Below, one piece after another: positions 59,289 to 63,828 of a stretch of DNA of 64,000 nucleotides. This DNA comes from Sulfitobacter sp. (GTDB taxonomy: Bacteria > Pseudomonadota > Alphaproteobacteria > Rhodobacterales > Rhodobacteraceae): NCBI GenBank assembly GCA_029252045.1, contig JAQXCD010000020.1:233685-297684 (forward strand), written 5' to 3'. Each line of letters opens with the position of its first letter. Positions within the stretch are counted from its first letter, which is position 1. A program made the translations under genes and the position numbers. The notes beneath the pieces are model-generated. The model did not search any database, was not told the origin of the DNA, and saw only the letters and a program-made list of their open reading frames with translations.

Positions 59289-59392
59289 GTTTGCTACTTC
59301 CGTTTGCTTGGCGGACCGCTAGTGCGGCCCTGATGTATGAAGGCCCCCGTAGGTGCCCGATGATATGCTTGCCCAAGTTGGGCGAACAACAA

Positions 59393-59590: not shown

Positions 59591-59908
59591 TCAAGACTGT
59601 CCACTAAAAGCTATTTCCGCTCCTGACGCCCGATATCGCATCCCATCATAGCGCGTCGTCACCATTGAACTAAACTCCGACGGAATTACTTGCCGACTGT
59701 CAATGAAGTCCAATTCAGTTCCGGTGCTTCGGCCTTCACGCCAAACCGTTCCCGAAAGGCTGGCTACCGATTGATCGGGAAAAGCAATTTGATCGTCAAC
59801 TATCATATCAGAATCATCAGTCGGCCCGTAAGGCGAAAGCGAGAAGCAAAATAATTTCCTTGTCTCGTAGTTGATTGAGCAATCATTCGGACCATCTGGC
59901 CCCACCAT
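59591..59908 (-). CDS. Hypothetical protein, possibly 3' part of a broken gene
   Basis: Open reading frame between rplB and rplW; adjoins a start-less frame 59883..60188. Confidence 0.4.
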   Translation of the reverse strand: MVGPDGPNDCSINYETRKLFCFSLSPYGPTDDSDMIVDDQIAFPDQSVASLSGTVWREGRSTGTELDFIDSRQVIPSEFSSMVTTRYDGMRYRASGAEIAFSGQS

Positions 59909-60150
59909 TTCGAAGTAATTGGCTTAGGTCAGCCCTTTGACCGTTTATGGCGAAGGCAGAATATACGCTCTCGTCTCTACTTTGCACTACCGTTCGCGAG
60001 CCTGACGGCCAGTAGAAATCAATAATACATCCATCTTCGCCGCACTCTCGCAATTCCTTTCGGCATGGCTCAACATCAAACAGTTGAGTAGCATCAACCG
60101 ACGAAACGCGGCAGTAGCTACCGACTGCACCATCGTTTGACGCCGCAACT

Positions 60151-60390
60151 CTATCTAGCGTTAGCCCCCATATTAGTTGCTCGTGAACTCAAGAGCTCGC
60201 GCAATGCTTCGTTTTCTGTCTCGTCAATAACGGTAGCAACAATTGAGGAGCATTGGTCTAAGCTAATCCCCTCAATTCCATAAAACACAAACTCGAGGCA
60301 ATTCCGTTCATTTGATTCCATGCTTTCTTCTTCAGCAGCCAATGGACCAAAGCTCAGACAAACGACACTTAGCGAAATTAAGAACCGCAT
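60151..60390 (-). CDS. Small exported hypothetical protein
   Basis: Signal-peptide-like MRFLISLSVVCLSFGPLAAEEE. Confidence 0.55.
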   Translation of the reverse strand: MRFLISLSVVCLSFGPLAAEEESMESNERNCLEFVFYGIEGISLDQCSSIVATVIDETENEALRELLSSRATNMGANAR

Positions 60391-60446
60391 ACAGGCTACC
60401 TCCAACTTGAGTGTTCGAGAGTACGGAAAGACGACTTCATTGCAAA

Positions 60447-60478
60447 CAAAAAGGCCCCGCAGTTCACACTGCGGGGCC
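60447..60478 (-). terminator. Terminator after rplW
   Basis: ggccccgcagt-tcac-actgcggggcc, minus-strand tail CTTTTTGTTTG. Confidence 0.9.
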
Positions 60479-60508
60479 CCTCTAATTCTCAACCGTAAAA
60501 CCTAAACC

Positions 60509-60805
60509 TTACAGGCCAGTGGATACGTCGATTGTGTTGCCCTCTTCGAGCGTCACGTAGGCTTTCTTCACGTCTTTACGCGTACCAAGCTGGCCGCGGA
60601 AACGCTTAACTTTACCTTTAGTGATCGTCGTGTTGACCGCTTTGACCTTTACACCAAAGAGCGTTTCAACCGCTTCTTTGATCATTGGCTTGTTCGCCGC
60701 GATATTGACCTCGAAAACGACGGCGTTGTTTTCAGACGCCATTGTTGCTTTCTCGGTGATGATCGGCTTGCGGATCACGTCGTAGAGTTCTGCTTTGGTG
60801 CTCAT
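60509..60805 (-). CDS. rplW: 50S ribosomal protein L23
   Basis: [47 protein letters not shown]. Confidence 0.98.
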
Positions 60806-61419
60806 GACAAACGGGCCTCCAGTGCTTCGAGACCAGCCTTCGTCAGCACAAGTGTGTCCGACTTCAGGATGTCATAAACGTTCGCACCCATAACAGGTAG
60901 AGCGTTGATCGATGTGATGTTGCGTGCTGCAACGGCGAAATCTTCGTTCACAGTCGCATCGATGATCAAGCAACGCTTCCAACCCAGTGCGCCGACCGTT
61001 TTGGCCAATGCAGAAGTCTTCGCGTCTTTGATGTCGATGTTGTCCACGATGACCAACTCACCGGCAGCTACTTTAGCTGACAATGCGTGGCGAAGACCCA
61101 ACTTGCGGAACTTCTTTGTCAATTCGTGGCCGTGGCTGCGAGGTGTTGGACCTTTGTAGATACCACCACCGCGGAAGATCGGAGCAGAACGTGCACCGTG
61201 ACGCGCGCCGCCGGTACCTTTCTGACGATAGATCTTCTTTGTGGAGTACTTAACTTCGGACCGGGTTTTCACCTTGTGCGTACCAGCTTGCGCATTGTTG
61301 CGCTGCCAGCGGACGACGCGGTGCAGAATGTCGATGCGTGGTTCAAGACCGAAGATGGCCTCGTCCAGATCAACAGACCCTGCTGCTTTGCCGTCAAGTT
61401 TGATTGCTTCAGCTTTCAT
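60802..61419 (-). CDS. rplD: 50S ribosomal protein L4
   Basis: [45 protein letters not shown]. Confidence 0.98.
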
Positions 61420-62239
61420 TGGAGGAATCTCCTTCCGGTGTCGCTGTTTCGACTGCATCTTCTGCGGCCTGTTCAGCTTCTGCGGCTGCGGCTGCTGCTG
61501 CGGCTTCTACTGCTGCTGCTTCTGCGGCTGCGGCTTCGGCCATTTTTTCAGCTTCTTTGGCAGCGGATGCCAAGGCTGCTGGGTAGATCACGTTGTCAGA
61601 CGCTGGCTTCTTAACCGCATCCTTGATTGTGACCCAGTTGCCTTTGGAACCTGGTACGGCGCCTTTGACCATGATCAAACCACGGTCGGCATCTGTTTTC
61701 ACAACCACAAGGTTCTGCGTCGTAATCTTCGCATTACCCATGTGACCGGCCATCTTCTTGCCTTTGAAAACCTTACCGGGATCCTGACACTGACCAGTGG
61801 AACCGTGTGAGCGGTGCGAAATCGACACACCGTGTGTCGCGCGCAAACCACCAAAGTTCCAACGCTTCATCGCACCGGCAAAACCTTTACCAATGGACGT
61901 ACCCGAAACGTCAACGAATTGACCCTCGAAGTAATGCGAAGCAATGATTTCTTCGCCAACGGCGATGAGGTTGTCTTCGGACACGCGGAATTCGCAAACC
62001 TTACGCTTTGGTTCAACATTTGCTTTCGCAAAGTGACCACGCATCGGAGCAGATGTCCGCTTGGCTTTTGCCGTACCGGCGCCGAGTTGAACAGCAGAAT
62101 AGCCATCCTTTTCAGCAGTCCGCTGGGCTACAACCTGCAGCTTGTCGAGTTGTAGAACGGTCACAGGAATCTGCTTTCCGTCCTCTTGAAAAAGGCGGGT
62201 CATACCCAACTTTTTAGCGATTACACCAGAGCGCAACAT
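61409..62239 (-). CDS. rplC: 50S ribosomal protein L3 with Ala/Glu-rich C-terminal extension
   Basis: [33 protein letters not shown]; tail [47 protein letters not shown] overlaps rplD start. Confidence 0.97.
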
Positions 62240-62253
62240 AATCATCCGCTCCT

Positions 62254-62565
62254 TTATACTTTGATCTCGACGTCAACACCGGCAGCAAGGTCGAGCTTCA
62301 TCAGCGCGTCTACTGTTTGTGGTGTTGGGTCGACGATATCCAGCAGACGCTTGTGCGTGCGGATTTCGAATTGATCACGGGATTTCTTGTCGATGTGAGG
62401 TCCACGAAGAACTGTGAATTTCTCAATCTTGTTTGGAAGCGGAATAGGTCCGCGTACCGAAGCACCTGTGCGTTTGGCGGTGTTTACGATTTCCTGTGTC
62501 GACGCATCGAGCACACGGTAATCAAACGCCTTCAAACGGATGCGGATGTTCTGGCTGGCTGCCAT
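62254..62565 (-). CDS. rpsJ: 30S ribosomal protein S10
   Basis: [39 protein letters not shown]. Confidence 0.98.
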
Positions 62566-62641
62566 GTTCATCACCCTTCATTTGGGCTTAGATCGGAGAG
62601 GAGGACCGTGGCTCATCCACACCCCTCATCGCGTCTTTATG

Positions 62642-62681
62642 TCCAACGTAAACAGGGCACGCATGTCGCACCCTCGTTGGA
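62642..62681 (-). promoter_or_regulatory. Candidate 5'-terminal leader hairpin of S10 mRNA
   Basis: Minus strand TCCAACG[AGGGTGC-gacatgc-GTGCCCT]gttta-CGTTGGA; begins about at the predicted start site. Confidence 0.55.
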
Positions 62682-62688
62682 TAGGGGG

Positions 62689-62717
62689 GCTATAGGGGGA
62701 GTCGGGGGATGTGGCAA
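62689..62717 (-). promoter_or_regulatory. Candidate S10-operon promoter
   Basis: TTGCCA-17-TATAGC on minus strand upstream of rpsJ. Confidence 0.7.
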
Positions 62718-62757
62718 GTGCGGAGTTTGAAGGGGGTTGGTTTTGCCCTGAACGCTC

Positions 62758-63828
62758 TCAGACGGCATGGGGGCGCAGTTTATCGACTTCGTCGCGATAG
62801 GGCGCAGCCCCAACAGGAAGGTCGCGGATGATCACCGCATCCTGATGACGAAGCTGTTTGACCAGAACGGGGACAAGCCGCCGGAATGCGGCCCAGATGG
62901 AAGGATCAGGCGGCGGCATATCATGTTTGATCAGAGTATGAAGTTTGGGCAAATTATAATAAGGGACCATCGTAAACATGTGATGTTCAAGGTGATAGTT
63001 CATGTTGAGATAGATAAAGCGGCTGACAGGGTTCATCAGCACAGTTCGCGTGTTCAACCGATGATCTGACACGTTTTCGGCCAGCCCGAGGTGTTGTAGC
63101 AGCCCCGTCATCACATGATGCCACGCCCCGTACAGACGCGGCAGGCCGATCAACATCAGCGACAATATCGACCCCATCCATAGTGATGTGGCGACGGTGA
63201 CAGCATAGATCAGCAACCAGATGCGCGCGACCAAAAACAGGCGTGCGTGGTCTTTGGTCGCGACATACATTGCCTCTTGCGGGGCGATGCGCCCGCTGGC
63301 GTGCAGGATCATGCTTTTGAACGCGTGATAGACATCAACGACGCCCGTAAACGCCAAGGCAACGCGCAGTAAATCAGGTGGCCGCATCGCGACAATTTCG
63401 GGATCGCGCCCAACAACGACGGTGTCGGTGTGATGACGCACGTGGCTGGCCCGCCAAACAACCGGATTCCGCATCATCATGAAACAGGCAATCTGATAAA
63501 CGACAGCATTCATCCAAGGCGTTTTGAACGCGGTCTTGTGGCCGCATTCATGCCACCGAGAATCTGCGCCGGATCCGTATAGAACCCCGTAGATAATCCA
63601 GAATGGAGCAGACCACCACGACGGCCACAGCGCAATTGCGATGGTTGCGGACACAATCAATGCGCCAAGCCAGAGCGCTGTATCACGCAGGGCCATCGCG
63701 TCCGATTTTTGCATCAAGGCCCTGATAGCCTGTGGGTCAACTGTCGGGCGAAACCAATTCGGATTGGCGGTGCCGTTTAAGGCCGCGATGCTGTCCCCCT
63801 CGTCTGAAAGTTTGTAATTCTGGGTCAT
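62758..63828 (-). CDS. Membrane fatty acid desaturase-family protein
   Basis: Histidine boxes HECGH, HVRHH and HLEHH. Confidence 0.92.
   Translation of the reverse strand: MTQNYKLSDEGDSIAALNGTANPNWFRPTVDPQAIRALMQKSDAMALRDTALWLGALIVSATIAIALWPSWWSAPFWIIYGVLYGSGADSRWHECGHKTAFKTPWMNAVVYQIACFMMMRNPVVWRASHVRHHTDTVVVGRDPEIVAMRPPDLLRVALAFTGVVDVYHAFKSMILHASGRIAPQEAMYVATKDHARLFLVARIWLLIYAVTVATSLWMGSILSLMLIGLPRLYGAWHHVMTGLLQHLGLAENVSDHRLNTRTVLMNPVSRFIYLNMNYHLEHHMFTMVPYYNLPKLHTLIKHDMPPPDPSIWAAFRRLVPVLVKQLRHQDAVIIRDLPVGAAPYRDEVDKLRPHAV

Follow-up and report, generated by a model that had tools for sequence, protein, structure and literature searches.

The S10 operon offers a textbook example of autogenous control, described in E. 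coli and proposed, with unrelated structures, elsewhere. In E. coli, ribosomal protein L4 regulates the operon at the levels of both transcription and translation (PMC10931766). For the alphaproteobacteria, passages in the main text of the survey by Eckert and Weinberg list an L2 leader and no S10 or L4 leader (PMC7247131). Motifs from the Rhodobacterales have also been analysed, in a study whose main text makes no reference to ribosomal genes (PMC8632094).

We examined the rpsJ (S10) locus in a 64,000-nucleotide stretch of contig JAQXCD010000020.1 from a Sulfitobacter sp. (We call the whole stretch the window, and positions are counted within it.) The 5' UTR of rpsJ holds a covarying structured RNA, present at this position in 115 genomes, and covariation and position are the grounds for placing it in the class of ribosomal-protein leaders. 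We think it quite likely, judging from sequence comparisons, that it acts as such a leader, and that a free protein encoded by rpsJ-rplC-rplD-rplW represses the start of S10 translation.

The rpsJ promoter and the 5' hairpin

The features of the locus are:

62689-62717, minus strand: promoter, with TTGCCA at 62717-62712, a 17-nt spacer, and TATAGC at 62694-62689
62642-62681, minus strand: 5' hairpin, with basal stem TCCAACG/CGTTGGA, apical stem AGGGUGCG/CGUGCCCU, and GUUUA in the 3' bulge
62654-62674, minus strand: terminator-like tip of this hairpin, GC-rich and followed by GUUU, identified by a pattern scan and in relatives (putative function)
62588-62641, minus strand: conserved 3' element, directly downstream of the 5' hairpin, which matches our model R1 with 59.9 bits
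62573-62587, minus strand: Shine-Dalgarno hairpin GCCC-AAAUGAA-GGGU, directly 5' of the start codon
62254-62565, minus strand: rpsJ (S10), the first gene of the unit (Pfam Ribosomal_S10, PF00338, 6.6e-38), with its ATG at 62565-62563
60509-62245, minus strand: rplC (L3), rplD (L4), and rplW (L23), the remainder of the unit (Pfam PF00297, PF00573, and PF00276)
59291-59358, minus strand: L2-Alphaproteobacteria leader (RF03142), which opens the next unit (rplB and onwards; Rfam 54.4 bits, above the gathering score)

Along the minus strand, a fatty-acid desaturase gene (62758-63828) is followed by the promoter and leader and then by rpsJ-rplC-rplD-rplW. Reading the sequence, we predict that transcription starts at 62682, which is 7 nt beyond TATAGC and about 117 nt before the rpsJ ATG. 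The initial annotation had proposed both this promoter and a start near 62682, and the sequence is as it described. Furthermore, TTGNCN-17-TA occurs at the equivalent position in 48 leaders of relatives. (Our regular expression required the TTGNCN/TA form and permitted spacers of 16-18 nt; all 48 spacers are 17 nt.) That these elements are conserved amid varying flanking sequence speaks for a genuine promoter of the split-off S10 unit. A generic sigma-70 scan did not call TTGCCA-17-TATAGC, since it requires a T at the end of the -10 hexamer, which TATAGC does not have. Among the rpsJ promoters of the 48 relatives, none of the -10 hexamers ends in T (TATAGC, TATACG, TATAGA, and others). Hexamers of this kind, without the final T, go with CarD-assisted promoters in Rhodobacter.

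The S10 operon is interrupted in this genome: about 1.2 kb separates rplW from rplB and contains two open reading frames (113 and 105 amino acids; 59591-60492, minus strand), neither of which has a match in Pfam. A terminator-like hairpin, AGCCCCAGA..TCTGGGGCT-TTGTTGTT, lies at 59414-59393 on the minus strand, ahead of the L2-Alphaproteobacteria leader, and no sigma-70-like promoter was called between the two.

The 5' hairpin had also been drawn correctly in the initial annotation, both in its coordinates and in its pairs. TCCAACG (62681-62675) pairs with CGTTGGA (62648-62642) to give 7 base pairs, and these enclose the pairing of AGGGTGC (62674-62668) with GTGCCCT (62660-62654), which includes two G-U wobble pairs. 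The 41-nt stretch folds with -20.0 kcal/mol, as compared to -9.97 +/- 2.35 kcal/mol in shuffled sequences (z = -4.27; 0 of 200 shuffles), so this fold is not due to chance.

To describe the hairpin across relatives, we used an alignment of 30 leaders with their own promoter (A3). In the apical stem, 97% of cells are paired, and 7 of the 10 pairs have changed on both sides. For instance, the usual stem is CGGGGUGCG/CGCGCCCCG, where one relative (L022) has CGACCCGCGUG/CACGCGGGUCG and another (L025) has CAAGGCCGCGU/ACGCGGCCUUG. We compared the helix as a whole to simulations that keep the rate of each column and place substitutions randomly on the tree; none of 1,000 simulations matched the observed pairing or the observed number of double changes. 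No single pair in the 5' hairpin covaries at E < 0.05 against a tree-based null, so the support for this hairpin comes from the helix-level test and the shuffles. The basal 7-bp stem is weak as a conserved helix: 55.7% of its cells are paired, with p = 0.06 and 0.03 in the helix-level tree test. (The highest covariation score among its slid-partner controls is 0.157.)

The 5' hairpin is tied to leaders in which rpsJ has its own promoter, and it is missing where rpsJ follows tuf. It is the lineage-restricted, less conserved half of the leader, and the core lies just downstream.

The conserved element R1 and the Shine-Dalgarno hairpin

The structure of R1 is based on an alignment of 62 leaders (A2). 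From the outside in, it has a helix P1 (GGGUU/AACUC and equivalents), a bulged C, GA/UC pairs, an asymmetric internal loop, a second helix P2 (GWRG.../...CYWC), and an apical loop. The internal loop is 1 x 3 nt, with N opposite C-[UA]-[CA], and the apical loop is either the five bases RUGRK or an alternative, AAUUCC. The covariation score of the alignment is 0.553, versus 0.216 when shuffled and at most 0.137 with slid partners. Six of the 18 pairs (10-52, 9-53, 16-45, 20-40, 23-37, and 24-36) have E < 0.05 against the tree-based null, and none of 1,000 simulations attained the observed values in the helix-level tree test. Next to the loop, pair 12-51 is an invariant G-C in A2 and is A-U in L012-L018 (the GAI101 group).

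Both helices change sequence completely within A2 while the letters of the loop, C-[UA]-[CA] and C/GA, are kept. A caveat is that the pattern used to gather the sequences prescribed some of these letters, so their invariance is partly built in; the covariation of the helices is not affected. C11 is invariant in A2 even though the collecting pattern did not fix it.

Between R1 and the start codon is a short hairpin (3-5 bp) at the Shine-Dalgarno sequence. Its arms differ among leaders (ATCCC/GGGAT, GCC/GGC, ACCCT/AGGGT, and others), and 93% of 72 leaders have such a hairpin with a score of at least 9. Its shortness counts against it, as does the frequency of chance hairpins, which reach this score in 29% of mononucleotide-shuffled linkers. 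The Shine-Dalgarno hairpin would be the likely switch of the S10 leader.

The initial annotation had looked to covariation among rpsJ leaders, and we found it in the six pairs of R1 and, at the level of the helix, in the apical stem of the 5' hairpin, but not in any single pair of that hairpin. As for its proposal that a candidate S10 leader starts with this hairpin, the apical stem stands (at the helix level) and the basal stem is weak, while the core and the Shine-Dalgarno hairpin lie downstream and had been overlooked. The broader claim of an S10-operon leader RNA with a sequence unlike that of E. coli is well supported by conservation across the family, by covariation, and by the 115 genomes with R1 before an S10 match. 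The suggestion that it is an alphaproteobacterial analogue was too wide: matches are confined to the Rhodobacteraceae in a 387-genome sample of the class, and the named loci agree.

Distribution and permuted forms of the leader

A covariance model of R1 finds a single copy in the genome itself, at rpsJ (62588-62641). We examined S10 loci from 29 further genomes of the genus, and among 199 genomes of Rhodobacteraceae, 120 have matches to R1. Of the 166 such genomes that have an S10 match, 115 carry R1 15-39 nt ahead of it (116 matches; median, 25 nt). Matches elsewhere are weak fragments, with the exception of one genome (G249) whose S10 position was absent from the list. Searching the class sample with stricter filters gave no R1 matches outside of the Rhodobacteraceae, and among the named loci, R1 is absent from those that clearly belong to other families. 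Carriers with names include Ruegeria, Leisingera, Roseovarius, Shimia, Loktanella, Thioclava, and Paracoccus. About 30% of the S10-positive Rhodobacteraceae genomes have no R1 match, and these must regulate the S10 operon in another way.

Outside of the genus, the leader is mostly found between tuf and rpsJ (40 leaders have the end of EF-Tu upstream), and the others have their own promoter. Since R1 is kept in both arrangements, it travels with rpsJ and not with the upstream gene, as expected for an operon-specific control site.

Some of these loci are unusual in other ways. In one genome (G191:C71:105672-106569; L043 and L044), rpsJ is present in tandem copies, each with its own conserved element, due to a duplication or an assembly artefact. 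Also, alphaproteobacterial S10 genes occur in records titled as an Exiguobacterium profundum metagenome-assembled genome (L231, CP059262.1) and as Oceanobacillus sp. (L224, WNWL01000001.1); these titles look wrong.

In seven Rhodobacteraceae genomes that lack R1 at rpsJ (about 4% of genomes), we found AACCTMTSGG...AYGTT in the same place. (Across whole genomes, this pattern has many chance matches; seven are at rpsJ.) Three more sequences of this form, from the named loci L195, L202, and L231, bring the total to 10. They fold as AGAAC-CUC-UYGG...CCRA-U-GUUCU or as GAAC-CUA-UKG...UA-C-GUUC, and 94.4% of cells in the 10 sequences are paired, versus at most 47.8% with slid partners. These folds share with R1 the three-base bulge, the UC/GA step (or UU/AA or UG/UA), and the single opposite base; the inner and outer helices are swapped, and the C that is bulged in canonical R1 takes part in a pair.

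We infer that the permuted forms may be functionally identical to canonical R1. If so, the binding core of the leader would have two topologies at rpsJ that are circular permutations of each other: most Rhodobacteraceae would have GUU-C-GA-N-GWGG...CCWC-CWM-UC-AAC, and relatives of Rhodobacter would have AGAAC-CUC-UYGG...CCRA-U-GUUCU or GAAC-CUA-UKG...UA-C-GUUC. We hold this reading tentatively, at slightly under an even chance. A natural permutation, if it is real, would pick out the nucleotides read by the protein, whatever scaffold they sit in; and if both forms bind the same protein, they amount to a natural experiment on how that protein recognizes RNA.

Another group, the Cereibacter-type relatives (L083, L086, L101, L128, L130, and L203), has a different hairpin before rpsJ, UUGGMAGAGGGGCGGG...CCCG...CCCGCCAA, along with the same kind of Shine-Dalgarno hairpin, GCCCGAGGGC. 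This is possibly a third, unrelated S10 leader.

A model for control of the S10 unit and its relation to known leaders

In the mechanism that we propose, transcription would begin near 62682 from the conserved promoter, and the RNA would fold into the 5' hairpin with its terminator-like tip, the two-helix element R1 (62588-62641), and the hairpin that covers the Shine-Dalgarno sequence (62573-62587). When rRNA is in short supply, free S10, L3, L4, or L23 would bind the internal loop of R1. The bound protein would stabilize the Shine-Dalgarno hairpin, so that translation of S10 and of the genes coupled to it would drop. The structure of R1, its place before rpsJ, the recurrence of the Shine-Dalgarno hairpin, and the apical stem of the 5' hairpin are results of the computational comparison.

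Because the L2 leader opens the next unit, the plausible ligands are limited to the products of this one, and the ligand is probably S10, L3, L4, or L23. We favor L4, only because it has this role in E. coli, and by that analogy its chances are about even; S10, L3, and L23 are possible.

The 5' hairpin is less likely to be the binding site, because leaders behind tuf lack it and because it is formed before R1. Instead, it may stabilize the 5' end or act as a weak, basal attenuator. The first of these roles, in which the hairpin shields an abundant mRNA from a 5'-dependent RNase and has no protein ligand, is a reasonable possibility at somewhat less than an even chance, and it is compatible with what we propose for the remainder of the leader. 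It fits with a stem that begins at predicted nucleotide 1 or 2 and with the link between the hairpin and leaders that have their own promoter. But a double-stranded 5' end would require the basal stem, which is weakly conserved.

Alternatively, the hairpin itself could be the regulated part: it would attenuate transcription at about +30, and a ribosomal protein or NusA would govern it, as happens in the S10 leader of E. coli. The terminator scan called the tip (62674-62654) once, where 0.3 calls were expected, and compensatory changes maintain the apical stem. In 29 of 48 relatives, at least three of the five bases after the stem are T, with UUUUU at most (in L032, L049, L073, and L178). However, the U-run is only GUUU in this genome and is broken in many relatives, so the tip appears terminator-like only weakly. 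Also, the better-conserved R1 is made after the polymerase has passed the hairpin, which leaves no simple means of control, and the hairpin is missing where rpsJ follows tuf. We consider regulated attenuation to be unlikely.

Returning to R1 as the site of control by a ribosomal protein, we scanned 23S rRNA for a mimic of its internal loop and found only chance-like matches in a simple two-strand scan, which works at the level of sequence and does not reach mimicry in three dimensions. (The genome itself has no 23S match, and we used the 23S rRNA of a congener, L157, with its 5' end partly masked.) Published ribosomal-protein leaders often lack an rRNA mimic (PMC7247131). The result of the scan would also suit an R1 that senses something else (a protein from outside the ribosome, a small molecule, or the growth state), which may be the case for some cis-regulators of ribosomal genes; but R1 is strictly associated with rpsJ. 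As a single bulged hairpin, it has the size usual for ribosomal-protein leaders and would be a small riboswitch, which again argues against a different ligand, and we think that one is improbable.

It is similarly doubtful that the structures are constitutive elements that tune translation or processing, with no feedback (for example, a site for RNase III or RNase E in the interval between tuf and rpsJ). Outside the genus, most relatives do have R1 between these two genes in a single gene string, where processing sites are plausible, but the survival of the loop letters through complete changes of the helices, and the apparent permuted form, speak for a loop that is recognized specifically.

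A leader found across the Rhodobacteraceae, a family with tractable hosts such as Rhodobacter and Ruegeria, would close a gap in our picture of S10 operon control. It would also show how a leader can be replaced or re-plumbed, with its own promoter or behind tuf, and in canonical or permuted form, while a few nucleotides of the loop are retained.

Among known elements, none of the Rfam 15 families scored above its gathering score at 62563-62717 (a sub-threshold chance match to H19_3 had E = 3.2). On our best reading, the Rhodobacteraceae S10 leader would be new within the known class of ribosomal-protein leaders: it has no counterpart in Rfam or in the literature that was searched, and an earlier publication, or a listing in the supplement of a survey, is possible.

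Four described leaders are closest. First, the L4-Archaeoglobi leader (PMC7247131) also precedes an operon that encodes L4, but it is archaeal, lies before rplC, and belongs to an unrelated lineage, and the rpsJ leader region has no Rfam match. Second, the motif RLC-47-1 of the Peptostreptococcaceae (PMC11109978) is another candidate leader directly 5' of rpsJ; it is from a clostridial family. Third, RF03142 is a ribosomal-protein leader of the alphaproteobacteria (Eckert and Weinberg 2020, PMC7247131), and it is in the same gene cluster and the same window. Unlike R1, it precedes rplB and is a different motif: it does not match 62588-62641, and a search of 62520-62760 gave no match to it even at E = 10. 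Fourth, compared by description and not by alignment, our leader differs from the E. coli S10 (L4) leader in being short (about 117 nt) and in having its terminator-like hairpin upstream of the conserved element. Like the E. coli leader, it is a structured 5' UTR of the S10 operon with a hairpin near the Shine-Dalgarno sequence and a terminator-like hairpin upstream, and by analogy, translational autocontrol is likely here as well.
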